DNA of 64,000 nt, taken from Terriglobus tenax (lineage in GTDB: Bacteria; Acidobacteriota; Terriglobia; Terriglobales; Acidobacteriaceae). Of this stretch, positions 27,345 through 63,100 are shown in pieces (positions within the stretch are counted from its first letter, which is position 1; every line of letters begins with the position of its first letter). The position numbers and the translations under genes are program-made. The notes beneath the pieces were generated by a model. It did no database searches. It was not told the origin of the DNA and saw nothing but the letters and a program-made list of their open reading frames with translations. The stretch lies in contig NZ_JAGSYA010000004.1 of NCBI RefSeq assembly GCF_025685395.1, forward strand, positions 310,001 to 374,000, in the 5' to 3' direction.

Positions 27345-30300
27345 CTAGAAGAGCAGCTTTGCACCAAACTGCAGCTGGCGAGGATCGATCGTCGTAGCCG
27401 AGATAACACCAAAACCAGCCACATTAAGCGTGTTAGCGGGGTTAGCAAAGTTCGTACTGTTCGTCAGATTGAAGGCATCCGCGCGCAGTTCGAAAGAAGT
27501 TCCTTCCAGCAATTTAGTGGTCTTGGCAAGGCTCATATTGACAACCTTCTGCCCAGGTCCAAACAGCATATTGCGACCGCTATTGCCATAGCCATAGGTT
27601 GGCGGGGCAGAAAATGCAGCTGTATTGATCCAATTCGTGATGCTACGGTTGGCCACGGCATACGGATCGCCACCATTCACACTCATATTCGCGCGCGAAG
27701 CATAGCTGTTTACTGCTGTGCTCTGATACAGGATGGAGAAGGGCGCGCCACTCAAAAGCCGGGTTACGCTCGTCACGCGCCATCCTTCAACCACGCGGGA
27801 GATCACGCTGCCTCGATTGTTAAGGAACATCTTCCCTGGACCAAATGGCAGGTCAAGGCCACCGGTAAAGTAGAAGGTCACACGGCGCACACCGTCGGCA
27901 TTACCACGATCACCACGCTGGTTATAAGGATCCTGAGGAGAGCCTGTATCCGGTACGTCGTCGATCGACTTTGTCCAGCTCAGGTTTGCCTGCATATAAA
28001 GCGAGCTCTTGAAGCGGCGAGTCCCCTGGATCTGCAACTGGTTGGTGAAGCCGGTTCCAGTAAAGCGCATACCGTAAATATTGCTGTATGGCTGGTATGG
28101 CAGAAAGTCCTGGTTGCTTTGTGTGCTGCTGCTGGGAGCAGCCAGGTCGCGTGGACGGTTCATTTCGTAGTTCACGTACGGAGCGTGAATCGCCCGATTG
28201 CCTACATACGAAATACGAAATCCGATTGAAGCAGGCAGCTTCTGTTCCAGCGAAAGGTTCCACTGCTGCGAGTAGGTGTTGTGCAGCTTCCGGTCCACGG
28301 AGTACAGCACCGGATTCGCAGTGACAACAGGAGACGTTGCAAATGGGTCGTCCAAAGAGATGGTCGGGGTTGTGCCACCGTTGTACTGCTGCGTCAGCTT
28401 GAAAGGCGGATTGCTGACGCCAAGCTGGTAGATTCCCTGATAAATCGCAGGCATGTTGTAGAAAATGCCATAGCCTCCGCGCAGAACCAGGTCCGTCGAA
28501 TTTGTAGGACGGAAGGCAAATCCGATACGGGGCGCAAAATTTGTTTTATCGGAAACAAGAACATCCGAACCCCAGCCCACCTGCTCCGATGTTTTATAGG
28601 GATACAAAGAGAGGAGCGTGGAATTCGCAGAGCTGGGCAACTGGCCGTTTACAGAGCGAACGACCAGGCTGCCGCTCGCAAAGTCAAAGTTCGTCCATCC
28701 ACCAAAACGCTCCGTTGGCTGGGTCTGTAACTCGTAGCGCAGTCCATAATAAACAGACAGGCGTTGTGTAATCTGCCAATCATCCTGAGCATAAAAGCCA
28801 TAGCGATTCTGATGGATCACATTCGAAGGAGAAACGGTAGAGCGAAGCGTTGATGTTGGAAGCCCCATCAGTGCGTTCCCAAGACCGTTCAGCGTATAGC
28901 GGCTTGACAGGAAGTTGAAGTAGCCAAGCGTCGTCGTGCTGGATCCGGGGTTCGTCGATACCTTCGTGATCTGAAGATCGGCTCCAGTTTTGAACGTGTG
29001 ATGACCACGATGCCAGATGAAGGTATCTCCATACTGCTGGGTCATCTGCGGATTTGAGCGCGAACCACCCGAATCTCCGATGCGTGTATATCCAGTAATG
29101 CTGAAGATAGGGATACCGCCGATCTCGTGCGGATACAGTCCAGGGAAAAGCTGCGTTCCATCAAAACTAGTATTTTGACCAAGGCGAGTGGATCGCATTG
29201 TGTAATACGAAACACGAAGCTCATTCGTCATAGACGCTGAAAGAATGCGTGTATAGGTAAGTGCTCCGGATTTTGTCTGGAAGCCGGCGTCGGAATAGTT
29301 TCCATACTGGACCGGATAACCAAGGTTGACGAAATAAAGACCACTTTCCGCCCAGTTCGCGTCAAACGCGATGCGATTCTTCGGGTTGAAAACGTGCTCC
29401 AGCTTACCGGAATACCGATTCAAGTCCAGATTCGTGGCGCGCGGCTGCTTCAGGTTGGAGGTTGCGAACGTTGTATTTGCACGCGGCACAAGCTGAAGAA
29501 TGGTCTGGAACTTCTGATTCAACATCGAATCGGGAATTTTGTTATTCGCAAAGTAGGTCAGTGTATACGGATTGCGAATCGCCGTCGTGAACTGTCCCGT
29601 GCGCTGGGCATCTGTTGGAACAGTAAAGATACCTTGGCGTTGCTGGCGTTGTGAAAAGCGCTCCGCCGATACGAAAAAGAATGTGTGATTCTTGACGATC
29701 GGACCACCAAAGGTACCGCCAAATTCATTGCGGTTGAACGGCAGGCGCGCCGTTCCCAGCGTCTTGGCAAAGTACTCATTTGCGGCAACAGCACTATTGC
29801 GGTTGAACTCAAACAACGTGCCGTGAAACTTGTTCGTGCCACCCTTGGTGGTCATGACAACCGCAACCGAACTGGCATACTCGGCCTTAGCCGCATTGCT
29901 CTCGATCTTCACATCCTGAATTGAGTCCAGCGATGGCTGCGTCGTCAGAGACGTTGAGTAAGCATACGAACCGCCACCGTTGCCACGGTCATCGTAGGTT
30001 ACACCGTTTACCTGGAAGCTGGTACCACCCCAGTGTTGCGAACCCGAGATCTTGGGATTGGAGTCCGAGCCGTCACCGCTGTTGCCCGGCGCGGTGGCAA
30101 TGATCGCAGAGATGGTACGGCCATTTGCCGGCAGTTCTACCAGTGCCTTGGAGTCGGTAACCGTCGCGATGGAGGGCGAGTCTGTGGTCGTCACGCCGGC
30201 ATCCGGCTTCACTTCCACAACCTCCGTCACGCCGCCGACATTCAGCGCGACATTGTTGCGGAGAACCTGGTTCAGGACGAGGTGAGCGTCCTTGATCTCC

Positions 30301-43372: not shown

Positions 43373-43434
43373 CCTCTCCTCACGGAGAGACTCAGGCCAC
43401 CGGTTCTCTATTCGGCCTGTCTCTCCGTGAGAGG
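43373..43434. terminator. Long hairpin between FAH gene and histidine kinase
   Basis: The arm beginning CCTCTCCTCACGGAGAGAC (43373-43398) pairs with GGCCTGTCTCTCCGTGAGAGG (43414-43434) with two small bulges. It lies between convergent genes, and its right arm includes the last codons of the histidine kinase, whose stop falls in the loop at 43408-43410. It would serve as a two-way terminator, although no clear T-run follows on either strand. Confidence 0.55.
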
Positions 43435-44799
43435 AAGACACACCGTCGCCACTGCGCCGCCGCGCGGATGGTTGGCAATCTCAATGCTGCCCCCCGCCCG
43501 TTCACAAATAGCTTTGCAGATTGAGAGTCCCAGGCCGGTCCCCCCGCTCTTGCGGCTGCGCGACGCATCTCCACGGTAGAAGGGCTCAAACAAGTGCGCG
43601 AGATCTTCCTCGCGAATGCCCTCTCCATGGTCTCGAATCGTCAGTATGGCTGTCTCTCCATCACGACGCAGACTTACTTCCACCTGGCTATTGTCATGGC
43701 TGTGCTGCAGCGCATTCACAACCAGGTTCGAACATAAGAGTGCAGCATCCCGAGAATCCAGGCCGACAACAACAGAAGCAATCGGCGAAAGCGACACCGC
43801 AATGTGCTTCATCGCGGCAAACGCGTGACTTTGCGTCACCGTGTCCTGCAGTACCTGGTGCAGAGCACACGAAGACGGAATCGCATCGGCAGGCTGTTCC
43901 AGCCGTGCCAGGATCAACATCTTCTGAACCGTCTCTTCCAGCCGGGTAAAGTCATCCAGCCCTATCGCAAGGCCCTTGGCGTATTCCTCGGCCGTACGTT
44001 CCCGCATGGTAAGCAGTTGCAATGATGACTTCACAATGGCGAGGTCTGTTTTAAGCTCATGCGCCGCATCCCGCGTGAAGCGTCTCTGCTGCTCAAACGA
44101 TCGCTGCAAACGTCCCACAGTCCGCTCAATCGCGGCTCCTAGCGGGCGCAGCTCTTCATATTGCATGGCCGTTTCCGGAGGCGTAAAGCTCCAGTGGACA
44201 GAGGTCACCTTATCCGCTTCTCCGGCAAGCAACAGGATCGGCGACAGGAGCCGACGCACCATCCATACCAGCAGGATCGCCGTCAGGCCCAGTAGCAGGG
44301 CCGTGGCTCCGGCAAAAAATCGCGTCGCTTCAAAGACCTCGTGCCAGATGCGGTCAACCGGCTGCCCATACACAATGTTGACGCGCCGCACCACACTCCC
44401 CGGAGCCCCGGCATCCACGACGCGCTCCCCCGCCAATGCGAAGAAACGATAAGCCCGCCGATGGACCTTTCTGTTCAGAAAAGAACCGTCGACCGGGACC
44501 TCATCCGGCATCACACCAGCCATGCCTAGCACCTGCCCACGGTCATCCATCACCCGGTAAATCGCATGGGGTCCCAGGCTGATGCGTTCCTGGTTCAGCG
44601 AAACATTGCCCGTGTCCCCAGCCTCCTGCACCGCGCCGAACAATGAGTTCGCGGATGCGCGCAAATTGGCATCGAAGGTCTTGTACTGGTTCTGCCGCTC
44701 GTTCACGGTGACGGCAACAATCAGGAAAACCCCGGCAAGCCCTTCCAGCAACAGCACGGCCGCAATCAGCCGTCTCGCAATAGAGTTGGACCACCTCAC
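43408..44799 (-). CDS. Sensor histidine kinase
   Basis: 463 residues. Two membrane helices (residues ~9-31 and ~161-181) frame a ~130-residue periplasmic sensor region. A HAMP-like linker follows. The phosphate-accepting histidine is H247 in RDAAHELKTDLAIV. The N box is LCSNLVVNALQHSHDN, G1 is IRDHGEGI, and G2 is GTGLGLSICKAICERAGG. It overlaps the response-regulator stop in ATGA at 44796-44799, so the two form a cognate pair. The signal sensed is unknown. Confidence 0.93.
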   Translation of the reverse strand: MRWSNSIARRLIAAVLLLEGLAGVFLIVAVTVNERQNQYKTFDANLRASANSLFGAVQEAGDTGNVSLNQERISLGPHAIYRVMDDRGQVLGMAGVMPDEVPVDGSFLNRKVHRRAYRFFALAGERVVDAGAPGSVVRRVNIVYGQPVDRIWHEVFEATRFFAGATALLLGLTAILLVWMVRRLLSPILLLAGEADKVTSVHWSFTPPETAMQYEELRPLGAAIERTVGRLQRSFEQQRRFTRDAAHELKTDLAIVKSSLQLLTMRERTAEEYAKGLAIGLDDFTRLEETVQKMLILARLEQPADAIPSSCALHQVLQDTVTQSHAFAAMKHIAVSLSPIASVVVGLDSRDAALLCSNLVVNALQHSHDNSQVEVSLRRDGETAILTIRDHGEGIREEDLAHLFEPFYRGDASRSRKSGGTGLGLSICKAICERAGGSIEIANHPRGGAVATVCLPLTERQAE

Positions 44800-45476
44800 G
44801 ACGAAGCTTCCTGGCTCAACCGGTAGCCGCGGTGCCGCAGCGTCTCAATCAGTGGTTCATTCCCTGCCTGGTTCAGCTTCCGGCGCAGGTTTGAGATGTG
44901 CGCCTCAATCACATTGGAGTGGTGCTCCCACTCGAAATCGTAGAGATGCTCCAGAAGCTCTCGCTTGGAAACAACCGCTCTCGGACGATAGGCAAGGTAC
45001 TGCAGAATGCGGTACTCCATCGGAGAAAGGTCGATCTCCTGGCCACATCTCTTCACAACCTGGCGCACTGTGTCTATCTCCACGTCCGCGATATGAATAA
45101 CGGCAGAGGGCACGCCCTTGGCGCGCCGGATAAGCGCTTTCACCCGGGCCAGCAGTTCTCCCAGGTCGAAAGGCTTGGCCAGGTAATCGTCAGCACCGTT
45201 GTTCAACAGATCGACGGTCGTCTCTTTCCCTTCCATCGCCGTAAGAATCAGCACCGGGGTATGCAGCTTCATCTGCCGGATATCGGAAAGGACCTTCTTA
45301 CCGCTCTTTCCCGGCAACATCAGGTCCAGGATGATGGCATCGAAGACGTCCTGCGTCGCCAGTTGCGATCCTGTAATTCCGTCGGCTGCATGGTCCACCG
45401 CAAACCCGGCCTCGCGCAGCGCCTGCATGATGTTCTCCGCAAGCCGCTTTTCATCCTCAACAATCAGCAGACGCAC
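44796..45476 (-). CDS. OmpR/PhoB-family response regulator
   Basis: 226 residues from GTG 45476, chosen because GGGAG stands 6 bases upstream and the protein then begins MRLLIVEDE at the receiver's first strand; a longer frame to 45545 is rejected. The receiver has E7/D8 acidic residues, phospho-acceptor D51 (IILDLMLPGKSG), T79 (LILTAME) and K101 (LAKPFDLGEL). The C-terminal winged helix has LSPMEYRILQYLAYRPRAVVSKRELLEHLYD and HISNLRRKLNQ, closing with the wing IETLRHRGYRL. It is paired with the kinase downstream. Targets are not obvious; the upstream membrane-protein gene lies 86 bases away on the same strand. Confidence 0.93.
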   Translation of the reverse strand: MRLLIVEDEKRLAENIMQALREAGFAVDHAADGITGSQLATQDVFDAIILDLMLPGKSGKKVLSDIRQMKLHTPVLILTAMEGKETTVDLLNNGADDYLAKPFDLGELLARVKALIRRAKGVPSAVIHIADVEIDTVRQVVKRCGQEIDLSPMEYRILQYLAYRPRAVVSKRELLEHLYDFEWEHHSNVIEAHISNLRRKLNQAGNEPLIETLRHRGYRLSQEASS

Positions 45477-45562: not shown

Positions 45563-46798
45563 CTACCAGCTATAGAAGGCCTCGACCGATGGCGCACCCG
45601 TCTTTCCATCGATCACGCTGGTCTTCAGAACAACCTCAATATTCTTCTGGCTGAGGTCTTTGCCAAGACGCTGGCTTAACCACTCCAGGTAGTGAGGATT
45701 CGTTGCAAACTCAGAAGCAGCTTCGCTTCCATTTCGTCCAAGTCCTGCCAGGACGACGATCACGCTGCCGGTGGTCTGATTGCGGAAGCGCGCAACCAGC
45801 GCGTAATCATCGGCGCTGGAATAGGACAGCGATGTATCACGCTGCCAGTGTTTCCCTGCATCCTGGCTATCCAGAATCACGCCTTCCGGATTCACGCTGA
45901 AGTGATAGCGCAACCCGGAAAGCAGCCGGATACTCCAATCGTTGTTGTAGCCCCCCAGCAGGATCACCGGCCGGTCGCGGAGCTCATTCAACGGCAGCCC
46001 GACCGACGAACGCACCTCGTACATGGCACCTTCGCGCTGCAGCAGACCGCCAAGCTGTCCAATGGCAGTCGCAATCTGCATCGAGACAAAGGGGTACTGT
46101 GTGTCCTTCCCTGCTGTCACGACTCCGGAAAGATTGTTCGGAGCGAAGACCACTCCCCCCGGGCAGATCAGCGTCCTCTGTCCTTCACCCACCACCGGCC
46201 GCCAGAACTGGTCCAGCACATCCGGCGGATGAGGACGAAAACGCCATCCAGTCACCGCAATCGCAGCCAGGAGCAGAAGACTGATTCCTGCTATCCAGAC
46301 AGGTCGTCGCTTGTCCCGCAAGGAGACCCGGTCTCCCCTGTCGACAGCCGCGGCCTCCGCACCCCAAACCTGGGTCACTGGAACAGCCGATGCTTCTTCC
46401 TTAATAAGGATTGCGCCGGCTGCCGGCTCGTCGGCAATCAGGAACTCCGGTGTATACGATCCCGACGGGAGGGTGATCTGGACACGGCCATCCGGGTGGT
46501 CGTGGTAATAAAGCGACAACCTCTTCCGAACTTCGCCTGCGGTAAACCGGACGATCGTATCGGCGTTGGTGTCGTAATCCGGTGGCCGCTGGAAGACTTC
46601 GATGCCGAGCGTCCGCTCCTTCAGGTCGCCCCGGCCGGTCAGGGCACTCTCGACGACATACCGCAACAGGGCCGGATAGCGCTTGCTGTTGCAGAAATGC
46701 GTGCTGGCCAGAATCGACTCAAGCTCCTGCTGAACCCATTCACGGTCCTGCCCGTTTACCGGGTGCCACACCGCCCTGTCTGTCTTCAAAATGCTCAT
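45563..46798 (-). CDS. Single-pass membrane protein with winged-helix-like N-terminus; candidate transmembrane regulator
   Basis: 411 residues from ATG 46798. Residues ~20-120 match a domain common in Acidobacteriota: NSKRYPALLRYVVESAL, LKERTLGIEVFQRPPDYD, TIVRFTAGEVRKRLSLYY, then ITLPSGSYTPEF. The last two parts look like the recognition helix and wing of a ToxR/CadC-type DNA-binding domain; this resemblance is mine and untested. One membrane helix spans residues ~167-187. The remaining ~220 residues would be periplasmic, with no family I recognise. It is divergent from TonB receptor 2, which suggests a one-component sensor for the polysaccharide locus. It could share a transcript with the two-component genes. 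Confidence 0.6.
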   Translation of the reverse strand: MSILKTDRAVWHPVNGQDREWVQQELESILASTHFCNSKRYPALLRYVVESALTGRGDLKERTLGIEVFQRPPDYDTNADTIVRFTAGEVRKRLSLYYHDHPDGRVQITLPSGSYTPEFLIADEPAAGAILIKEEASAVPVTQVWGAEAAAVDRGDRVSLRDKRRPVWIAGISLLLLAAIAVTGWRFRPHPPDVLDQFWRPVVGEGQRTLICPGGVVFAPNNLSGVVTAGKDTQYPFVSMQIATAIGQLGGLLQREGAMYEVRSSVGLPLNELRDRPVILLGGYNNDWSIRLLSGLRYHFSVNPEGVILDSQDAGKHWQRDTSLSYSSADDYALVARFRNQTTGSVIVVLAGLGRNGSEAASEFATNPHYLEWLSQRLGKDLSQKNIEVVLKTSVIDGKTGAPSVEAFYSW

Positions 46799-46943
46799 AT
46801 TCCAGGCAGCAGCCATCATACTGCAACGAATACACCTTCGTCCCACGTTTGAAACAAGCTGCAACAAAATACCTATCCCATTGTTTCAAAAAGACTTAAA
46901 TCTTCCACTCCGGATACAAACCGTGAGTCACTTGCCATCGGTT

Positions 46944-46956
46944 CTTTGCGGCAAAG
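46944..46956. promoter_or_regulatory. 13-bp palindrome in the receptor 2 control region
   Basis: CTTTGCGGCAAAG is a perfect palindrome around a central G, 146 bases from the start of the membrane regulator gene and 121 bases before TonB receptor 2. It is a candidate operator for either gene. No other copy was noticed in the window. Confidence 0.35.
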
Positions 46957-47048
46957 ATGGTGGGCCCTGCTTTGCCTACATGCCTTTTAAGGACAGGAAG
47001 GGTAAAGCTCCGCAGCGTGGCGGAGGCTCTGGCACACGGCGCACATAG

Positions 47049-47064
47049 AAACGCCAGGGCGTTT
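47049..47064. promoter_or_regulatory. AAACGCC-AG-GGCGTTT palindrome next to the receptor 2 ribosome site
   Basis: Two perfect 7-base arms around AG end just before AGGAGG (47066-47071) and ATG 47077. It could be an operator of the LacI kind or an mRNA hairpin that affects access to the ribosome site. Confidence 0.4.
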
Positions 47065-47076
47065 TAGGAGGTTCGT

Positions 47077-50000
47077 ATGAAGTTGTTCGGCAAACTACTG
47101 CTGCTTCTGCTGCTGGTCGCTGGTATGGCGCAGGCGCAGCTCACCACCGCCACCATCGTCGGTAATGTGCAGGACTCCACCGGCGCGGTTATCCCCTCGG
47201 CCCAGGTCACCGCCACCAACCAGGAAACGCAGTTCACCCGCACGGTGACCTCCGGCGCGGACGGAGCCTACCGGCTCGACTTCCTGCCCGTCGGAACCTA
47301 CACCGTAAAAATTGAGGCCGCCGGCTTCCAGACCAGGCAGCAACAGGGTGTCGTCCTTACCCTGAATGCCGAGATCCACGTCGATGCCGCCCTCTCCATC
47401 GGTGAAGCCTCGCAGACCATCGACGTCACCTCCAACGAGATTCCACTGGTCGAAACGACCACCTCCTCGCTTGGACGCACCGTCACCAACGTCGAGGTCG
47501 ACAACCTCCCCATCGTCAACCGCAACGTCTATGACCTGCTGACCCTCACCCCCGGCGTCCAGGCCAGCTCCAACGTCAACACCCTCGGCTACCCGCAGCA
47601 GGTGGTCTACATCAACGGTGGTACAGACAACTTCGTCGGCTCGGTAAGCTACTACCTCGACGGCGGTCTGAACATGACCTTCATCCGCAACACCGGAAAC
47701 GTTCTTCCCAACCCGGACGCCCTGCGGGAGTTCAACGTCCAGACCAACAACTACAACGCTCTCTACGGCCGCATGTCTTCCGGCCTGGTGAACGTCGTCA
47801 CCAAGAGCGGCACCAACAAGGTTCACGGCTCCATCTTCTACTTCCACCGCGAGACCAACTTCGCCGCCGCTCCGGCCTTCAGCGCTCCCGGACCGAAGGC
47901 TCCGCTGCACCGGCATCAGTTCGGCGCCACCATCGGCGGCCCCATCTGGAAGGACAAGACCTTCTTCTTTGGCTCCTATGCCGGACTTCGCCAGATCACT
48001 TCCAGTATCCTGAACGGCGCCCTGGTACCCACCGCTGCGCAGCGCGCCGGTAACTTCGGCGAAAACCTGCCCACCTCCGGCACCCCGGCAACCTGCACCA
48101 GCAATACCTCCAGCATCGTCTTCGTTGTCTGCGACCCCGTTACCCGTACGCCGCGCCCGGGCAATGTGCTTGCCGCCAGTCAGATCGACCCCACCGTGCA
48201 GCGTCTGCTGGCACGCATCCCGCTGCCCAACGCCACCGGCGTCGATACCGCCACCGGTCGCACCACCTATCGTTGGCAGGGCACCATCGCCAACACCCTG
48301 AACACCGACGAGTTCCTGCTCAAGATCGACCACCAGATCGGCCAGCATCGCATTCAGGGCATGTACTTCAACACCGCCGGCAACCAGCAGCAGAGCCCCG
48401 GTGGCAACATTGACTGGTCGCGTCAGAACTTTGTCTACCGCCAGCAGAACGGCAACCTGTCTGACACCTGGGCTATCTCGCCCAACGTCGTCAACCAGGT
48501 CTGGCTCAACTACACCCGTATGATCGGCGGACGCATCAACACGCCTCAGCTCTCTCTGTCGGACTTCGGTTCCAGCTTCGGCATCCAGGGCGCTCCCATG
48601 CTTCCGCAGTTGGCCGTCAGCGGTTACTTCACCGCAACCCAGGCCATCAGCGGCCCCGTTACCGGCACCAACTTCTATTCCTTCCGCGACGTCCTCAGCC
48701 TCACGCGCGGCAAGCACACGCTGGCCTTCGGCGCGGAAACCTCGCTCAACAAGGACCTGCAGTACACCTACCTGAATAACTACGGAGTCTTCGCCTTCCA
48801 GCGCAGCACCACCGCACGCACCGGCGCAGAGATCTCGGACTTCGTCGCCGGTCTGCCTGCCACCATGAACCAGGACTCGCCCGTGCAGGCTGCGGACAAC
48901 TCGTGGTTCACCGGCGTCTTCCTGCAGGACGACTACCGCATCTTCCGCAACCTGACCCTGAACCTTGGCCTGCGCTGGGATGTGCAGACCCCGCCCACCG
49001 ATCCGAAGAACCGCCAGTCAGCCTTCATCCCCGGCCAGAAGTCGACCGTCTATCCCACCGCTCCCACCGGCCTTGTGGTGGTTGGCGATCAAGGCATCAA
49101 CCGCGGCATCGTCTCCACCCGCTGGCACCATGTCTCGCCGCGCGTCGGCTTTGCCTGGGACCCCTTCGGCAACGGTCGCACCGCGGTTCGCGGAGCTTTC
49201 GGACTCTTCTTCGGCTCTGTCTCCGGCAACGAGTGGAACGGCGTCTCCAACTTCCAGCCCTTCGCCGTCCGCAACCGGTATGCCTTCATCAAGTCGATGA
49301 CGGACATCTACGGCGATCCGCGTTCCTTCCCGAACGGTAACCCGTACCCCTACGTCTATGACCCGAAGAACCCGCGCCCCTTCATCACACCGGCACAGGT
49401 CCAGGGTATTGACCTGGCGTACCAGTGGCCCTACGTCTATCAAACCAACTTCTCCATCCAGCAGCAGGTCACCAACAGCCTCGCTGTCAGCATGAGCTAC
49501 GTTGGCTCCTTCAGCCACGATGTACCGTTCGCTCCCGACGTCAACTACCCGGTCTACGCCACGGCGGCAAACCCGGTCAACGGAGTCACCACCAGCAACG
49601 CCAACAACTTTGATTCCCGCCGTCCGTACAATCCGCTCGGCTTCGGCATCATCAACGTCATCCAGTCCAAGCAGCGCGCCAACTACCACGGCCTGCAGAT
49701 CACCGGAGAGAAGCGCCTCAGCAACCAGTTCTCCGTGAAAGCCTTCTACACCTGGTCCAAGACGCTCTCCACCGCCTCGGTCAATAACAGTGGAGCGGTC
49801 ATCGGCACCGCGCAGGACTTCAACCGCATGCAGGACGAGTACGGCAGCAGCGATACCGACATCCGGCACCAGGCCAACATTTCGGCGATCTGGAAGCCGG
49901 TTCTCTTCACCGGTTCGCCGCGCTACGTCCGTGAAACCATCAACGGCTGGACCATCTCCGGCATCGCGCAGTTCAACGCCGGTACTCCTTTCACCGTAAC

Positions 50001-50436
50001 CACCGGCACTGACAACAACTTCGACGGCTACACCACCGACCGCGCCAACCTCTCCGGCAAGGCCGACGTAGGCATCACCCGCGGCCGTTCGCGTGCGGAC
50101 AAAATCGCTGCCTACTTCAACCCAGCTGCTTTCTGCTCCTACACCGGCAGCACCGCTACCTGCCCCGCCGGCGTCGGTCCAGCTGGTCTGGATGGAACCA
50201 CCCGACGCAACAACTTCTTCGGCCCCGGATATCGCGTCGTCAACGCTGCGCTTTTCCGTGACTTTGGAGTGTACGAAGCGGTAAAGTTCCAGCTCCGTGC
50301 TGAAGTCAATAATGTCTTCAACCTGGTCAACCTCGGCAACCCGACGACATCGCTGAACTCTGGCAACTTCGGCAAGATCACCGGCGCCTCCGGTGTTCCC
50401 CGTCAGATCCAGATCGGCGGACGCATCCTTTTCTAA
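47077..50436 (+). CDS. TonB-dependent receptor, Oar-like (receptor 2)
   Basis: 1119 residues, with AGGAGG five bases before ATG and a signal peptide MKLFGKLLLLLLLVAGMAQA. A carboxypeptidase-regulatory beta domain follows (TATIVGNVQDSTGAVIPSAQV), then a plug domain with SGLVNVVTKSGTNKVHGSIF near residue 240, and a long beta-barrel ending GGRILF. It should import oligosaccharides for the locus that follows (alginate-lyase-fold protein 15 bases downstream, GH2, GH105). Third codon positions are strongly C-biased, a sign of high expression; this also creates long antisense open frames. Confidence 0.92.
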   Translation: MKLFGKLLLLLLLVAGMAQAQLTTATIVGNVQDSTGAVIPSAQVTATNQETQFTRTVTSGADGAYRLDFLPVGTYTVKIEAAGFQTRQQQGVVLTLNAEIHVDAALSIGEASQTIDVTSNEIPLVETTTSSLGRTVTNVEVDNLPIVNRNVYDLLTLTPGVQASSNVNTLGYPQQVVYINGGTDNFVGSVSYYLDGGLNMTFIRNTGNVLPNPDALREFNVQTNNYNALYGRMSSGLVNVVTKSGTNKVHGSIFYFHRETNFAAAPAFSAPGPKAPLHRHQFGATIGGPIWKDKTFFFGSYAGLRQITSSILNGALVPTAAQRAGNFGENLPTSGTPATCTSNTSSIVFVVCDPVTRTPRPGNVLAASQIDPTVQRLLARIPLPNATGVDTATGRTTYRWQGTIANTLNTDEFLLKIDHQIGQHRIQGMYFNTAGNQQQSPGGNIDWSRQNFVYRQQNGNLSDTWAISPNVVNQVWLNYTRMIGGRINTPQLSLSDFGSSFGIQGAPMLPQLAVSGYFTATQAISGPVTGTNFYSFRDVLSLTRGKHTLAFGAETSLNKDLQYTYLNNYGVFAFQRSTTARTGAEISDFVAGLPATMNQDSPVQAADNSWFTGVFLQDDYRIFRNLTLNLGLRWDVQTPPTDPKNRQSAFIPGQKSTVYPTAPTGLVVVGDQGINRGIVSTRWHHVSPRVGFAWDPFGNGRTAVRGAFGLFFGSVSGNEWNGVSNFQPFAVRNRYAFIKSMTDIYGDPRSFPNGNPYPYVYDPKNPRPFITPAQVQGIDLAYQWPYVYQTNFSIQQQVTNSLAVSMSYVGSFSHDVPFAPDVNYPVYATAANPVNGVTTSNANNFDSRRPYNPLGFGIINVIQSKQRANYHGLQITGEKRLSNQFSVKAFYTWSKTLSTASVNNSGAVIGTAQDFNRMQDEYGSSDTDIRHQANISAIWKPVLFTGSPRYVRETINGWTISGIAQFNAGTPFTVTTGTDNNFDGYTTDRANLSGKADVGITRGRSRADKIAAYFNPAAFCSYTGSTATCPAGVGPAGLDGTTRRNNFFGPGYRVVNAALFRDFGVYEAVKFQLRAEVNNVFNLVNLGNPTTSLNSGNFGKITGASGVPRQIQIGGRILF

Positions 50437-50451
50437 CCCACGGGAGAAAAC

Positions 50452-51672
50452 GTGAGCAAGCAAACCATCGAAGTATCCCGTCGTATCTTCTGCACCGGCG
50501 CCGCCGCAGCTCTGCTTGAGCTGCCGGCGGCCCGGCTGCGGGCCCAGCATGCAACCTCCGGCTACGACCTGGTTGCACGTACTGACCGTCAGCGTATCCT
50601 CACCGCTGCGAAAAAGTATCTGCCGCTTCAACCAGCCACGATTACCGCCTTTCCCTCCCCTAAAACTCCAGGCGGTCCCCACGACTTCTTCTCGGAAGCC
50701 GACTATTTCTGGCCCAACCCAGCGAACCCCGACGGTCCCTATGTCAATCGCGACGGCCAAAGCAATCCGAACAACTTCAACGGCCATCGCAAGGCGATGA
50801 TTGCGCTCTCTATCCAGATGCCTGCACTCACCTCCGCCTGGCTGCTGACGGGGGACAAGCGTTACGCCACACACGCTGCAAACCACCTGCGCGCCTGGTT
50901 CATCACGCCGGAAACGCGCATGAACACCAACCTTGAGTTCTCACAAGGCGTTCACGGCGTTACCACAGGTCGCAACTACGGCATCATCGACACCTTGCAC
51001 CTGGTCGAGGTCGCGCGCGCCGCCGCGCACATCGCGCCACAAATGAACGCAGCCGAACGTGAAGCTCTCTTCACATGGTTTCGTGAGTACCTGCACTGGT
51101 TGAAGACCAGCGAAAAAGGCATCGCCGAAAAGAAGACGTTGAACAACCATGCCGTCTGCTGGGCACTTCAGGCAGCCGAATTCGCGCGCTTGATCGGCGA
51201 TCAGCAGACTCGCCGCGAAGTCGCCGAACAATATAAGACGATCTTTATTCCCGATCAGCTCGGTACGGATGGCAGCTTCCCAAAAGAGTTGGCGCGCACC
51301 AAGCCTTACAGCTACTCCATCTTCAACTTCGATGTCGCAGCCATGCTCTGCCAGTCGCTCAAAGACAGCGGTGACAACCTGTTCGACTTCAATCTGCAGG
51401 ACGGCCGTGGTATCTGCAAAGCATCCCAGTTCCTCTATCCCTACCTCAAAGACAAATCCGCGTGGCCTTACAAGAAAGACGTGGAGCACTTCGATGCTCT
51501 GCCCGTGCGCTCACCCGGTCTGCTCTTCTGCGGACTCTCCTGCAGCCGCCCCGAATACCTGGCGTTGTGGAAGACGCTGAACCCCGACCCCGTCGACGCA
51601 GAGATCATCCGCAACTATCCAGTCCGCCAGCCGCTGCTCTGGTTCCCGGAACATACGCGCCACAAATCTTAA
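50452..51672 (+). CDS. Alginate_lyase-fold polysaccharide lyase (PL5-like), exported
   Basis: 406 residues from GTG 50452. The N-terminus has a Tat-like SRRIF motif followed by a hydrophobic run and an Ala-rich cleavage region. The Alginate_lyase fold (alpha/alpha barrel) is shown by SEADYFWPNP (residues ~81-90), the catalytic-type NNH at 231-233 in KKTLNNHAVCW, and RTKPYSYSIFN with Y286/Y288. Members cut uronate-containing chains by beta-elimination. The downstream GH105 enzyme would remove the unsaturated uronate ends that lyases make, which supports a lyase role. The polymer, alginate or another uronan, is not defined. Confidence 0.8.
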   Translation: MSKQTIEVSRRIFCTGAAAALLELPAARLRAQHATSGYDLVARTDRQRILTAAKKYLPLQPATITAFPSPKTPGGPHDFFSEADYFWPNPANPDGPYVNRDGQSNPNNFNGHRKAMIALSIQMPALTSAWLLTGDKRYATHAANHLRAWFITPETRMNTNLEFSQGVHGVTTGRNYGIIDTLHLVEVARAAAHIAPQMNAAEREALFTWFREYLHWLKTSEKGIAEKKTLNNHAVCWALQAAEFARLIGDQQTRREVAEQYKTIFIPDQLGTDGSFPKELARTKPYSYSIFNFDVAAMLCQSLKDSGDNLFDFNLQDGRGICKASQFLYPYLKDKSAWPYKKDVEHFDALPVRSPGLLFCGLSCSRPEYLALWKTLNPDPVDAEIIRNYPVRQPLLWFPEHTRHKS

Positions 51673-51689
51673 GCGCGAGAAGAGAACAA

Positions 51690-54155
51690 ATGACCATCAC
51701 ACGCCGATCCTTTCTTGCAGGCGCTGCCTGCCTCGGAGCGATGAAGACTCCTTTGCTCGCCTCTGCCCTGCAAAACAGCGATGCCGCTGCAGTCTCAACC
51801 CAACTGCTCTCCGGCGACTGGGAGTTTTACCGTGGCCCCCTCGATCCCAGGTTCCAGGTCTGGCACAGCGAAGAACTCGTGACCTGGCAGAAGGTCTCGC
51901 TTCCCCATTGCTTCAATAGCTACGACGGTTGCGACCCCGATATCCCCGCGTATCGTGGCGATGGCTGGTATCGCACCAGACTCAGCGTCAGGAACCCCTA
52001 TCCCAATGGCCGCACGCTGCTGCACTTTGAAGGCGCAGGTCAGCGGTCTGAGGTGTACCTCGGCACAGAACGCGTCCATGATCACACCGGTGGATATGAC
52101 GAGTTCATGGTCGATATCACCGAGGCCTGCGCTCGCCTGAACAAAGGCAAAGATATTCCGCTCGCTGTACTCTGCGACAATGGTCGCGATATGGAACGCA
52201 TGCCTTCGGACCTGAGCGACTTCACGCTCTACGGCGGCCTCTATCGCAACGTATGGCTTGTGTATGTTCCGGCCATTTCTTTTGAAGCCGTTCACACCAC
52301 CGTCAGCTTTGAGCCTGGAAAGCCCGCGCACATCGCCGTTACCTCCCGGCTCTATGCACCGCAGCAGTCTGGCACAAACCTCGACCTCCTCGTTACGATC
52401 CTTGATCCCGCAGGCAAGCGCATCCACAGCAAAACCCTCCAGCGCGCCGCATGGACCGGCGAAGTGGAACTAGCCTCTTTCCAGATCGACACACCCCAGC
52501 TCTGGTCACCAGCCACACCGCAGCTCTATCGCTGCGAGGTCACACTCGAATCCGCTTCCGGCAAAACCTCCGCAACTCATCGTTTCGGAATCCGTCACAC
52601 ACGTTTTGAAGAACACGGCCCCTTCTATCTGAATGGCGAACGCCTCCTGCTGCGTGGAACCCAGCGTCACGAAGACCACGCTGGCTATGCTGCGGCAACA
52701 CCCGAAGAGATCCTGCGCAAAGAGTTCGCGCTCATCCATGCCATGGGTGCCAACTTCATCCGGCTGGCCCACTACCAGCAGTCACGGCTTGTCCTCGATC
52801 TTTGCGACGAATACGGTCTGCTCGTATGGGAAGAGGTTCCCTGGTGCCGCAGCGGTGTCGTCAGCACGCTCTTCCGTCAACGCGGTCTTGACCTGATGCG
52901 CACGATGATCGATCAGCATCGTAACCATCCCTCCGTCTTGTTCTGGGGACTTGGCAATGAAGATGACTGGCCCGGTGAACCCCATGGCGAAGAACATGAC
53001 CAGATTCGCGCGTACATGACCGAGCTTCGCGACCTGGTCCATAAGCTCGATCCCTCACGCTACACCTCCTTCCGCCGTTGCGACTTCGCCAAAGACATCC
53101 CCGATGTCTACTCCCCCTCCATCTGGGCTGGCTGGTACAGCGGCAGCTATGTGGAGTATCGCGATGCACTCGAGAAAGCCCGCAAGGCAACTCCCTATTT
53201 CTTCCACGCCGAGTGGGGCGCGGACAGTCACGCTGGCCGCCACGCGGAAGACGCAGATCCCATGCTCGCCCATATCCTCACAGGGCACGGCACCGCAGAA
53301 AAAGGCTTCGATTACAAACTCACCGGGGGCACACCCCGCATGTCCCGCGATGGTGAGTGGAGCGAAACCTACGCCTGCGATCTCTTTGACTGGTACCTGC
53401 AAACGCAGGAGTCACTTCCTTGGCTGACCGGAACCGCACAGTGGATCTTCAAAGACTTCACGACACCACTGCGCGTTGAGAACCCCGTTCCGCGCGTCAA
53501 CCAGAAAGGCCTCACAACCCGCGACCTCACACCCAAGGAAGGCTATTACGTCTTCCAGTCCTACTGGGCAAAAGAGCCCATGCTCCGCATCTACGGCCAC
53601 AACTGGCCCGTACGCTGGGGCAAGGCCGGCCAACAGCGGCTGGTGCGCATCTACTCTAACTGCGCGGAGGTCGAGCTGTGGCTCAACGGAAAATCACTGG
53701 GCAAAAAAAAGCGCACACCGGATGACTTCCCCTGCAGTGGGCTTCGCTGGGACGCGGCCTTCCGTGCAGGCGAAAATGAGCTTCGCGCCGAAGGCCGCCT
53801 AGGCAACAGTCTCGTCAAAGATTCCGTCCGCTTCACCTATCAGACCACAGCATGGTCAAAACCAGCGAAGCTATCGCTACGCACGGTGAGCGACACCTCG
53901 GACCACACTACCGTCGAAGCCCGTCTTCAGGATACTGCCGGAGTTCTTTGCCTCGACTCACGCGCAGTTGTCCGTTTCTCTCTTGCCGGGAACGGTACTT
54001 TGCTTGATAACCTTGGTACGCCCAACGGGTCGCGTGTCGTACAGCTCTATAACGGCCGTGCAGAAATCAGTCTGCAACACACTGGCGCTGTGGTTGCAGG
54101 CGTGCACGCCGACGGCATGGAATCCGCATTCCTCACACTGGAGAAAACACGTTGA
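51690..54155 (+). CDS. Glycoside hydrolase family 2 protein (beta-galactosidase/glucuronidase type), exported
   Basis: 821 residues from ATG 51690, 17 bases after the lyase stop; the longer upstream frame is a shadow of the lyase gene. A Tat signal (TRRSFLAGAACLG) starts it. The GH2 domain order is jelly-roll sugar-binding (WYRTRLSVRNP), an immunoglobulin-like sandwich, then a TIM barrel with acid/base E424 (WGLGNEDDWPG) and nucleophile E508 (FHAEWGADSHAG), and C-terminal beta domains with WLNGKSLGKKKR. GH2 enzymes remove beta-linked galactose, mannose, glucuronate and others from chain ends. The linkage cut is unknown. The stop overlaps the next start in TTGA. Confidence 0.88.
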   Translation: MTITRRSFLAGAACLGAMKTPLLASALQNSDAAAVSTQLLSGDWEFYRGPLDPRFQVWHSEELVTWQKVSLPHCFNSYDGCDPDIPAYRGDGWYRTRLSVRNPYPNGRTLLHFEGAGQRSEVYLGTERVHDHTGGYDEFMVDITEACARLNKGKDIPLAVLCDNGRDMERMPSDLSDFTLYGGLYRNVWLVYVPAISFEAVHTTVSFEPGKPAHIAVTSRLYAPQQSGTNLDLLVTILDPAGKRIHSKTLQRAAWTGEVELASFQIDTPQLWSPATPQLYRCEVTLESASGKTSATHRFGIRHTRFEEHGPFYLNGERLLLRGTQRHEDHAGYAAATPEEILRKEFALIHAMGANFIRLAHYQQSRLVLDLCDEYGLLVWEEVPWCRSGVVSTLFRQRGLDLMRTMIDQHRNHPSVLFWGLGNEDDWPGEPHGEEHDQIRAYMTELRDLVHKLDPSRYTSFRRCDFAKDIPDVYSPSIWAGWYSGSYVEYRDALEKARKATPYFFHAEWGADSHAGRHAEDADPMLAHILTGHGTAEKGFDYKLTGGTPRMSRDGEWSETYACDLFDWYLQTQESLPWLTGTAQWIFKDFTTPLRVENPVPRVNQKGLTTRDLTPKEGYYVFQSYWAKEPMLRIYGHNWPVRWGKAGQQRLVRIYSNCAEVELWLNGKSLGKKKRTPDDFPCSGLRWDAAFRAGENELRAEGRLGNSLVKDSVRFTYQTTAWSKPAKLSLRTVSDTSDHTTVEARLQDTAGVLCLDSRAVVRFSLAGNGTLLDNLGTPNGSRVVQLYNGRAEISLQHTGAVVAGVHADGMESAFLTLEKTR

Positions 54156-56449
54156 AGCTCCTCCGCATCACCACAGGCGCTGCTCTACTATCAGCGGCCT
54201 TCCTCACTCCACTGCTCGCGCAGGACAAACCAATGTCTGGCGCGCAGATATCCGCCGCGGCCGGTGACACCATTCCGGATGGTGGCCCTCTTGCAACAGA
54301 CCTCTCCGGCGCCATCAAGCGGTCAGACATCCAGAAGGCCATGCGCAAGGTAGCTGACTGGCAACTGGCCTACTCTGAAGGCAAGTACAACCAGGACTGG
54401 ACCTACGGCCCACTCTACCTCGCCATGCTGGCAACCTCCGACATTACAGGCGATGCCAAATATCACGATCGCGCCGTCAAGCTCTTTGACCAATACCAGT
54501 GGAAGCTCTGGGCCAACCGTCCCTTTCATGCGGATGACGAAGTCATTGCGCAAGCGTACGAGCTGCTCTACCAGGAGAAGGCCGATCCCAAGCGCATCGC
54601 CGATGCTCGCGCCACCTTTGATCGTCTGATCGAACGTACGGACGATCCTGCGAAGGACCTCTGGTGGTGGTGCGATGCTCTGTACATGGCCCCGCCTGCA
54701 TTGGCGCGCATGTCGTTGATCACCGGCGACCATCGCTACATTGACAAGATGAACCAGGAGTGGAAGCTCACCCAGGAACATCTTTACGATCCGGAAGAGA
54801 AGCTCTTCTTCCGCGATGGCAGCTTCCTGAAGAAGACTGAGGCCAATGGCAAGAAGCTCTTTTGGAGCAGAGGCAATGGTTGGGTTCTGGCCGGCACAGC
54901 AAACGTTCTGAAGGCCCTGCCGAAGAATGATCCATCGCGTGCGCAATACATCCAGCTCTTTAAGGAGATGTCCGAGCGTATCGCCGGTCTGCAGCAGCCA
55001 AGCGGTCTGTGGCGCACTGGCCTGTTGGATCAGACATCATACGACCTGGATGAGATCTCCGGCTCAGGCTTCTTTACCTACGCCATGACCTGGGGCATCA
55101 ACGAAGGCATTCTTCCCCGCTCCAAGTATGGTCCGGTCGTGGAGAAGGCGTGGGCCGCCATGGTGAAGCACGTCTTCGCCAACGGACGTCTCGGTTCCAT
55201 CCAACCTATTGGTGCCGCGCCCGGACAGTTCACCACAACATCCAGCTACGTCTACGGCGTAGGAGCCTTTTTGCTGGCCGGCTCGGAGTTGGTTCGCTAT
55301 GCAGGCAAGGGTAAGCCCTCCGCAAGCCTTCTGCTCACCACCCCCGGGACAACGGCCCGCCGCGATGAAGTGCTGGACCTGCCGCTTACCGACGTGAAGC
55401 GACACCTTAACTCAATCGATGACCTGGTCGCGCGTAATCACGCAACGGGAAAGCGTCTGCTCACACAGATCTACTCCTCGCATGCGGAAGGCCCCGCTGA
55501 CCGCTTCCTGATCCTTACCGATGTTGCTCCCGGTTCCACCACCAGCGTTGAGCTGGCGGTGGAGCCCGGCGCAGTTCCACTCTCCTCCAAGGTCACCGCG
55601 CGCGATGTTCCGGAGCGTGCCGATGACTTTGTCTGGGAGAATGACAAGGTGGCCCACCGTGTCTATGGCCCTGCGCTGCAGGCCACGGGCGAAATTACCT
55701 CAGGCATCGACGTATGGTCCAAGCGCGTGACTGACTTTGTCAGCAACACCTGGTACAACCGTGACAAAGATAGCCAGAAGCAGCACAACCCCAACCTGAG
55801 CTACCACCACGACAACGGCGACGGCCTTGACTCCTACGAGGTCGGTCCTTCGCGTGGCATGGGCGGCGTTGGCATCTGGGTGGATGGCAAGCTGGCCAAC
55901 TCCAAAAATTTTACCCACTCACGCATCCTTGCCAAGGGGCCCATCCGCGTTGACTTCATCCTCGACTATGCTCCCTGGCAAGCGGGCGATAAGACTGTTA
56001 CCGAGAGCAAGCGGGTCACGCTCGACGCAGGCACACGGCTGAACCACATGCGCTCCACCTTTACCTTTGCGGGTGGCGGCACCGTGGAAGCGGCCGCGGG
56101 CCTGGCCATGCACAAGGGCACGGAGATCAAACAGCTTCCCGCCATTGGCGCTATCTCCGCATGGGACACACCCCAGACCGCCTCCGCAGGACATTTCACC
56201 ACCGCCGTTATGCTGAGCGGCAAGCAGCCCTTCCGTTTTGCCGGCGTTCCGATGCAGGGCAAAACTCCCGGAGACAGTCTTCTGCTCTTCACCGTGCGCT
56301 CCGGCGGCACCATCGACTACTACGCGGGCTCCGGCTGGTCCCAGGACGACATGCCTGACTTCAATACCTGGAACAATTATCTGGAAGATCGCTACAAGCA
56401 GATGCAGTCGCCCGTGAAGTGGACCTGGGCCACCAGCAAAGCACGCTGA
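54152..56449 (+). CDS. GH105 unsaturated uronyl hydrolase fused to DUF4861 domain
   Basis: 765 residues from TTG 54152, overlapping the GH2 stop, with signal peptide MKLLRITTGAALLSAAFLTPLLA. Residues ~50-390 are the (alpha/alpha)6 GH88/105 barrel: RPFHADDEVIAQAYELLY and WWWCDALYMAPPA, with D175 in the catalytic position known from YteR-type enzymes. Residues ~400-760 match DUF4861: FVWENDKVAHRVYGPA, GIDVWSKRV, and GLDSYEVGPSRGMGG. The first domain hydrates and releases the 4,5-unsaturated uronate left by a lyase. DUF4861 has no settled function and is often beside such enzymes. Having both in one chain is uncommon. Confidence 0.85.
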   Translation: MKLLRITTGAALLSAAFLTPLLAQDKPMSGAQISAAAGDTIPDGGPLATDLSGAIKRSDIQKAMRKVADWQLAYSEGKYNQDWTYGPLYLAMLATSDITGDAKYHDRAVKLFDQYQWKLWANRPFHADDEVIAQAYELLYQEKADPKRIADARATFDRLIERTDDPAKDLWWWCDALYMAPPALARMSLITGDHRYIDKMNQEWKLTQEHLYDPEEKLFFRDGSFLKKTEANGKKLFWSRGNGWVLAGTANVLKALPKNDPSRAQYIQLFKEMSERIAGLQQPSGLWRTGLLDQTSYDLDEISGSGFFTYAMTWGINEGILPRSKYGPVVEKAWAAMVKHVFANGRLGSIQPIGAAPGQFTTTSSYVYGVGAFLLAGSELVRYAGKGKPSASLLLTTPGTTARRDEVLDLPLTDVKRHLNSIDDLVARNHATGKRLLTQIYSSHAEGPADRFLILTDVAPGSTTSVELAVEPGAVPLSSKVTARDVPERADDFVWENDKVAHRVYGPALQATGEITSGIDVWSKRVTDFVSNTWYNRDKDSQKQHNPNLSYHHDNGDGLDSYEVGPSRGMGGVGIWVDGKLANSKNFTHSRILAKGPIRVDFILDYAPWQAGDKTVTESKRVTLDAGTRLNHMRSTFTFAGGGTVEAAAGLAMHKGTEIKQLPAIGAISAWDTPQTASAGHFTTAVMLSGKQPFRFAGVPMQGKTPGDSLLLFTVRSGGTIDYYAGSGWSQDDMPDFNTWNNYLEDRYKQMQSPVKWTWATSKAR

Positions 56450-60193: not shown

Positions 60194-63100
60194 ATGAACC
60201 TGCAAGACTTTCGGCCAGTTGCTACCGACCATCCTTCTGCGACCTCGCGCGGTAAAACAAGATCTCTGCTCATCACCCTGCTTTTGGCGGCAATGGTGAT
60301 GCTGGCAGGACCGCGCATGATCGCTCAGGACACCACCGCCACAATCCTTGGAACCGTCACCGATCCTTCCGGGGCCAATGTTTCCAACGCGGACGTCAGT
60401 GTAACGAACACCCAGACCAACATCACGGTCAGCGTGAAGACCACGGACTCCGGCGCCTACACCGTTCCCAACCTGATCCCCGGCACCTACAACGTCAGCA
60501 TCAAGCTGCAGGGCTTCCAGACGGTCAGCATTCCGAACGTCACCGTCGCCGCCGGCGATCGCCGCCGTGCCGACGCAGCCCTGGTTGTGGGCGCCGTCAA
60601 TGAAACGGTGGAGATCTCCACCGCCGCTCCCGTACTCCAGACCGATGCTTCCTCGGTCGGCAGCAACGTTACCGACCGCGCTGTGCAGGACCTGCCGCTC
60701 AACGGACGTAACTTCATCAACCTGGTCCAGGTAATGCCCGGCGCCACGGAAGGCGCTCCAAACAGCATCAACAGCGGTAACCGTCCCGACGACCGTCGCC
60801 AGTCCTCGTCCATCTCGATCAACGGCCAATCCGAAGTGCTCAACGACCAGCTTGTCGACGGTCTTGACAACAACGAGCGCGTCATCGGCACCATCGGCGT
60901 ACGCCCATCCATCGACTCCATCCAGGAAGTCCGCATTCTCACCAACAGCTTCTCGGCCGACGGTGGCCGCGCGGGTGGTGGTCTGATCAACGTCATCACC
61001 AAGAGCGGCACCAACAACTTCCACGGCTCGCTCTATGAGTTCTTCCGCAACGATAAGCTGAACGCCTACGCCTACCAGTTCGGCGCATCTGCGCCAAAGC
61101 CTCGCCTGCGCCAGAACCAGTTCGGCGGCTCGCTCGGCGGACCAATCTTCAAGGACAAGGCCTTCTTCCACGGCGATGCGGAGTTCTTCCGTCTCATCAA
61201 GGGTGGACTGCCCAGCTCGCTCACTGTACCCACGGCATTCCAGCAGGCCAACCCTGGGAACTTCTCCGATGCCATCCCCGCAAGCGGCTGCGCGACAATC
61301 GCTGCCACCGTTACTGACCCGACCCAGAACCACACCACGGGATGCGTTTATGATCCCAACCCGGCTTCGCCCACGTATCTGCGTGCTCCGGTAGCCGGTA
61401 ATATCATCCCCAGCAGCTACATCGATCCGGTCGGTCTGGCCTACTTCAAGCTCTATCCCCGGCCAAACTCCGGCAATGCAGGCTACGTAGGCACCCGGAA
61501 CCAGTCGCAGTTCTCCACCACCTACGATGTCCGCGTCGATTACCACCTGAACAACGACAACCAGATCTTCGGCAAGTACATCGTCAACGACCTGTTCACG
61601 TTTTCGCCAGGTGCACTCCCCATTTCCAGTGCCAACGGGTTTGCAATTGATCCCCAGACGGGCAACGGATTTGGTCAGGCCCCGCAGATCGCCCGTAACA
61701 CGGCGCTCATCTACACCCACACCTTCTCTCCAAACATGATCATGAACGTCGGCGCGGCATGGACGCACATCGACAACGCATCCTATCCGCTCAACTACGG
61801 CGTCAATCCCAACACCAAGCTGGGCCAGCCGAACGTCAACGTCAGCCAGCTTACCTCGGGCCTGGCAGTTGCCCTTCCAACGGGCCTCACCGGCCTTGGA
61901 GGCGGCAGCAACTTCGTTCCGCTGCAAAACAAGGACAACAGCTACCAGCTCAACGGCAACATTTTCTACAACCGTGGAAACCACAGCTTCCGCTTTGGCG
62001 CAGCGGGTATCCGTCGCATCGCCCTCAACATTCAGGATAACCAGGGAGAAGGAAGCTGGACCTTCCGCATGGGCGCACCCGGCCTGTTGATGGGTATCTT
62101 CTCAGCAGCTACCCGCAACAACAACCTCTACCCGCCCACCTACCTGACCTGGGAACCCAGTGTGTATGTCCAGGATGACTGGCACGTCCGCTCGAACCTG
62201 ACCTTCAACATCGGTCTCCGCTATGACATCTACACGCCCTTCACCGAAAAGAAGAACCATATCTCCAACTTCGATGAAGCCAACGGTGTCATCGTGCAGG
62301 CCGGCGTCAATGGCGTCAGCAAAACCGCTGGTGTAAGAACGGACTACTCCAACCTGGCGCCACGTGTCGGCTTTGCGTACACGGCAACGCCAAGCCTGGT
62401 CATCCGCGGAGGCTTCGGCCTCGCATTCTTCCCCAGCAACTACATGTCCCCGGTCAACCTGAAGAACACACCGAACATCTCCATCTACGGCAACTGCTCT
62501 TCGGTGCAGGCGGCGGCTGGTACCAGCGGTTGCAACACCTCCTATACCCGCTTCTATCAGGGCATGCCGTTGCCCAACCAGAACCCCGCCACTACCCCCG
62601 GCCAGTTGGTCGGCTCCATCCCGGCAACAGTCGACTTCGGCTTCCGTTCCGGCTACCTGGAGCAGATGAACCTCACAGTGCAGAAGGACTTCAAGGGCAA
62701 CACCCTGACGGTCTCCTACGTCGGCCAGCTTGGCCGTCACCTCTCCACCGGCTTTGACATCAACCGCGCTCCGCTGGGCAATACCACCGGCACGCAGACC
62801 TTGCGCCGTTACTACGGGACCATGCCGGGTGTCACCACCATCACCCGCAGCTATGCCTCTGGCGCATCGTCATACCATTCGCTGCAGGCTGTGTTTGAAC
62901 GCCGCTTTTCCAACGGACTCGGCTTCAATGTCAACACCACCTGGGCACACCTGCTCGACAACGCTCCAAACATCAATGGTCAGAGCGGCAACGGTGTAGG
63001 CCAGGTACTGGCCACCCAGAAGTATGCTGACTACGGCAACGGCGATCTCGACGTCCGCAACCGCATCGTCGTAACCGGCAACTACGCCCTGCCCTTCGGC

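Follow-up and report, generated by a model that had tools for sequence, protein, structure and literature searches.

The 411-residue protein encoded on the minus strand at 45563..46798 of the analysed window, a 64,000-nucleotide stretch of the Terriglobus tenax genome, is most probably (roughly 78%) a membrane-anchored one-component transcription regulator that controls the divergent receptor-lyase-GH2-GH88 operon through an 18-bp site, as judged from comparative sequence analysis. Its N-terminal domain (residues about 20-120) would bind this site, of the pattern CAAAC-N-GTGAGTCACTTG and located 142 bp upstream of the receptor start, with the help of a second CAAAC-type element, and the bound regulator would control the operon and probably its own gene, too. 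The periplasmic domain (residues about 196-411) would sense conditions in the envelope, the most likely signal being either the receptor itself or a polysaccharide fragment, and would relay this through the single membrane span. The features of the locus are the following:

45563..46798, minus strand: candidate membrane-anchored one-component regulator, 411 aa (P0001), with a conserved start and without Pfam, NCBIfam or PDB sequence match
45566..46213, minus strand: conserved periplasmic domain, residues about 196-411, presumed sensor (conservation across the family)
46238..46300, minus strand: predicted single membrane span, residues about 167-187 (Kyte-Doolittle 2.1)
46439..46741, minus strand: predicted cytoplasmic N-terminal domain, residues about 20-120, probable diverged winged helix (Trans_reg_C swap in L093; weak in-register profile matches)
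46442..46480, minus strand: presumed wing QITLPSGSYTPEF, residues 107-119 (alignment to the Trans_reg_C wing)
46517..46561, minus strand: recognition segment DTIVRFTAGEVRKRL, residues 80-94 (co-varies with the 18-bp site among family members)
46845..46857, minus strand: second conserved element TTGTTTCAAACGT (read ACGTTTGAAACAA), nearer to the regulator (clade conservation)
46917..46934, plus strand: presumed operator, site CAAACCGTGAGTCACTTG, facing the receptor gene with 142 bp to its ATG
47077..50436, plus strand: Oar-type TonB-dependent receptor, 1119 aa (CarboxypepD_reg, Plug, OMP_b-brl_4)
50452..51672, plus strand: alginate-lyase-family protein (PF05426; Pfam)
51681..54155, plus strand: glycoside hydrolase family 2 (GH2) enzyme (domain match)
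54152..56449, plus strand: GH88 (unsaturated uronyl hydrolase family) with DUF4861 (domain match)

The divergent receptor has all tested features of the Oar type (CarboxypepD_reg, plug and an OMP_b-brl_4 barrel) and is separated from the regulator by 278 bases up to its ATG at 47077. SusD (PF07980) was not found anywhere in the genome, which means that the SusC-SusD pair of a Sus-type locus is absent, and both the length of the gap and the SusD-less nature of the locus are as an earlier sequence-only reading of this DNA had described them. GH88 enzymes act on unsaturated uronates, and based on established knowledge of these families the combination of a lyase with GH88 in one operon suggests a uronate-containing polysaccharide as its substrate. 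Two further Oar-type receptor barrels are encoded in the window (27369-29852, minus strand; 60995-63580, plus strand), and a family search of the window found no such regulator beside them.

That the regulator is a single-pass protein of 411 residues divergent from an Oar-type TonB receptor had already been read from the sequence, and open reading frame and hydropathy agree with it. Its ATG and start (MS..KTD) are kept in three orthologues, and Terriglobus albidus DSM 26559, a culturable relative, encodes an orthologue. A single strongly hydrophobic stretch is found at residues 167-185 (Kyte-Doolittle 2.1), with basic residues on its N-terminal side, and 144 of 151 family members have a membrane span predicted by hydropathy at this place. 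No match was found for the protein in Pfam, NCBIfam or among PDB sequences. The periplasmic region, described earlier as unrecognised, is a conserved domain for which we likewise found no confident family match; an identity as S_layer_C was considered from matches in two relatives and not trusted at E-values of 0.013-0.019.

The sequence-only reading had further likened the end of the cytoplasmic domain to the recognition helix and wing of ToxR/CadC, a claim that stands in part. In its favour, the N-terminal domain of the relative L093 is exchanged for a true Pfam Trans_reg_C domain, which is combined with the same periplasmic domain in a protein encoded divergently from an Oar receptor, and Trans_reg_C matches below threshold are found at the corresponding position of the distant members L095 and L184. 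A profile of the diverse family also aligned to Trans_reg_C in register through helices and wing, albeit weakly (P about 0.013-0.018, with 5 of 300 column shuffles reaching the score), whereas an earlier profile-profile comparison with a narrow alignment had given no match. On the other side, the protein itself has no Pfam match, PDB profile searches returned nothing, and AlphaFold models made from four sequences, at full length and for the N-terminal domain alone, were of low confidence (pLDDT 37 and 52), did not make a winged helix apparent and were too poor for a fold search. Taken together, we infer that the N-terminal domain is likely a diverged winged helix. CadC topology includes an N-terminal beta-sheet (PMC5430869), in place of which the low-confidence model of the regulator apparently has a helix.

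The absence of a recognised DNA-binding family in the protein itself and the poor AlphaFold models count against its reading as a regulator and would fit a protein that does not bind DNA at all and instead acts as an envelope factor, e.g., of an anti-sigma-like or receptor-assembly kind. We consider this very unlikely in light of the replacement of the N-terminal domain by Trans_reg_C in L093, its occurrence at the head of a TPR protein and the correlation between recognition segment and site described below. This domain heads the TPR proteins at L003 (C4:994752-995114 of the same genome) and L075:13537-15291, one of which has a weak TolB_N match, an arrangement that resembles CadC but has a different sensor part.

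Acidobacteriota are among the commonest bacteria of soils. Genome comparison shows that the regulator belongs to an unnamed, multi-copy family of this phylum. Of 150 genomes from its taxonomic family, 102 encode a relative, whereas none was found in viral contigs, and the full-length members belong mostly to that bacterial family with few elsewhere in the phylum, though all counts of the phylum-wide survey are lower bounds because it scored six candidates per genome. By the family profile, the T. tenax genome itself encodes four full-length or nearly full-length members and one protein that shares the N-terminal domain alone, while genome G128 has 21 matches of which most are full length.

Comparison of loci also shows an association of this family with Oar receptors, for which members were picked solely by their similarity to the window protein. 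The sequence-only reading had proposed to count how often the domain lies divergent from Oar-like receptors, and an Oar receptor is indeed divergent and no more than 700 bases upstream at 32/63 loci of a first set, compared to 4/289 (1.4%) for the other genes of these loci, and at 16/39 loci of a second set (Fisher P about 1e-23 and 2e-13, respectively). At least eight more loci of the first set have an Oar receptor just downstream on the same strand, and another eight of the 63 have none nearby, which counts against the regulator reading. About 60 Oar-type receptors are encoded in each of three genomes checked, so the family regulators would serve a minority of them. At L077, L079 and L084, regulator and divergent Oar receptor are separated by a gene for about 540-640 aa.

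The gap between regulator and receptor is well conserved as a whole among orthologues, and two blocks, CAAGTGACTCAC-N-GTTTG and TTGTNNCAAACRT, persist in comparison to distant relatives with 45-54% protein identity. In most members, these blocks are 56-59 or 36 bp apart, a difference of about two helical turns. Comparison across genomes shows how specific the 18-bp site is: it occurs in a single copy in the 4.36-Mb genome of T. tenax, where the next best match has three mismatches, and in 21 copies across 300 genomes of the family against none for the reversed pattern. Of these 21 sites, 15 are positioned upstream of a gene for a family regulator, at distances of 138-162 bp and with constant orientation. 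In the opposite direction, each of the 20 sites that could be tested points to a presumed structural gene, namely 13 Oar receptors, four GH2 genes, one PF05426 gene, one GH141-like gene and the gene at L202, for whose downstream reading frame Pfam gave no match. Ten of the encoded proteins were scanned and the remainder assigned by sequence similarity or by start. Several sites face enzymes and not receptors, which means that no Oar gene needs to be adjacent, and genome G550 has one copy of the site at the regulator and another at an Oar receptor. The two palindromes that the sequence-only reading had noticed in the gap do exist as sequence (TTTGAAACAA/TTGTTTCAAA and TCTTTGCGGCAAAGA), but they are not the conserved site and were rejected as operator since neither the right arm of the first nor any part of the second is conserved in orthologues.

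On a tree built with FastTree, the site-bearing regulators form one fully supported clade with 39-97% identity, which is also recovered from the part of the protein after the N-terminal domain. The TTGTNNCAAACRT element is found without mismatch in 14/19 clade members and never with fewer than two mismatches outside the clade. As comparison further shows, recognition segment and site go together: every regulator with a site at 0-1 mismatch carries DT.VR[FY][ST]AGE[VI]RKRL at the expected recognition helix, and all regulators without the site except one also lack this segment, so that 17 of the 94 regulators in the tree set have the site and 18 have the segment. The exception, L218 of genome G431, carries the segment without a site at its own promoter, and in G431 two sites are present at Oar receptors unlinked to it. 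Because the site-bearing regulators are one clade, the association largely reflects a single evolutionary event, though it is strengthened by these unlinked sites. In a second clade (DPIVRVTAAEIRKR), 9/10 members have, by loose match, an element like TAAGGTCCTTGCGG at an equal distance, compared to at most 4 in shuffles; this result consists of position counts and not of exact-match frequency, for which the element scored 4 against 4 for the reversed control with those four loci being part of the discovery set. These observations suggest that paralogues may have their own operators. At L041, L046, L050, L157 and relatives, TAAGGTCCTTGCGG is found about 165 bases upstream of the aligned regulator start (-165), and its core AAGG-T-CCTT is an odd palindrome. 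If the segment sets specificity, exchanging DTIVRFTAGEVRKRL for DPIVRVTAAEIRKRI would move preference from the CAAACNGTGAGTCACTTG to the TAAGGTCCTTGCGG element, and binding of residues 1-150 to 46799-47076 would depend on GTGAGTCAC if our reading is true.

A different, cytoplasmic transcription factor might bind the 18-bp site instead, which would leave the membrane protein as a co-regulated or co-inherited neighbour. Such a scenario would fit the clade unity of the site-bearing regulators, whose binding to the site is predicted from sequence, as well as genome G571, where two exact sites at L202 and L213 face an unassigned gene and a GH2 gene and no regulator of the matching clade was detected in an assembly that is 93% complete; both points count against the regulator reading. 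We nevertheless judge this alternative unlikely, as the site is restricted to cases with one type of recognition segment, its single copy in T. tenax is too rare for a global factor and another element takes this position in the second clade. The claim of a membrane regulator for the divergent receptor locus, as first made from the sequence, has strong comparative support from the Oar divergence over controls, from the tie of the site to the regulators and to polysaccharide genes and from the match of site and segment, yet not from the palindromes.

With the membrane protein as the regulator that would bind the site, we infer activation over repression. That the site keeps one orientation and mostly stands 108-171 bp before receptor starts favours activation, as this arrangement resembles that of upstream activator sites, and ToxR/CadC-like regulators usually act as activators. 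Repression of the operon that is lifted on sensing of an inducer seems rather unlikely in comparison, though the site also lies near the presumed promoter of the regulator's own gene, as would suit a repressor. Directly downstream of the regulator gene and on the same strand, an OmpR-type response regulator and a kinase are encoded (43408-45476, minus strand), and their adjacency could speak for control of the receptor operon by this two-component system. We regard that as highly improbable, given that the orthologous loci L005, L037 and L007 (the latter with one short flanking gene covered) keep regulator, site and receptor operon, and neither a response regulator nor a kinase was found there.

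Like ToxR and CadC, the proposed regulator combines an N-terminal cytoplasmic DNA-binding part (predicted here), one membrane span, a C-terminal periplasmic part and a local target operon, and relative L093 even has their Trans_reg_C domain. It differs from them in an N-terminal domain missed by Pfam, a periplasmic domain of an undescribed family and predicted targets that are Oar receptors and polysaccharide enzymes. These parallels support a ToxR/CadC-like mode of action, though by sequence the Trans_reg_C domain that marks ToxR/CadC membership gave no match in the window protein and a true match only in L093. With the hybrid two-component and ECF sigma/anti-sigma systems of Bacteroidetes, it would share local regulation of a TonB-receptor polysaccharide locus and sensing from the periplasmic side, but it is one protein without kinase, receiver or sigma factor in a genome without SusD. 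The contrast to hybrid two-component systems had been anticipated from the sequence, and indeed the protein has no Pfam match for histidine kinase or receiver. As in FecA-FecR-FecI, a predicted single-pass inner-membrane protein accompanies a TonB receptor with an N-terminal periplasmic domain, except that there is no sigma factor and the predicted DNA-binding part resides in the same protein. It is conceivable, though rather improbable, that the family represents a one-protein counterpart of that system in which the DNA-binding domain is absent from current libraries, every paralogous clade uses an operator of its own and the Oar receptor is read directly by the periplasmic domain.

Transmembrane transcription regulators, which like this protein are one-component and have a membrane span, were surveyed in 2023 with Pfam DNA-binding models, and Acidobacteriae were noted as slightly rich in them (PMC10269533). 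The regulator family does not match these models and was therefore not counted there, so that surveys of this kind miss a multi-copy group of predicted membrane regulators. In the open-access literature, we found no description of such Acidobacteriota regulators nor of any regulator of Oar-type receptors, though an earlier description elsewhere is possible. For the Oar receptors of Acidobacteriota, our analysis offers a regulator family together with a candidate operator and a predicted target set.

We also considered GTxy-N-y'x'AC as a family-wide operator rule. It is enriched (17 loci versus 3.2 expected, and 12/19 in a second set) but was rejected, as many of its matches are GTATNATAC and thus maybe -10 promoter boxes. 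Palindromes of the GTATNATAC type are found upstream of L045, L048, L054, L055, L063, L090, L161, L165, L166, L168 and L172 and may be either such promoter boxes or operators of another clade.
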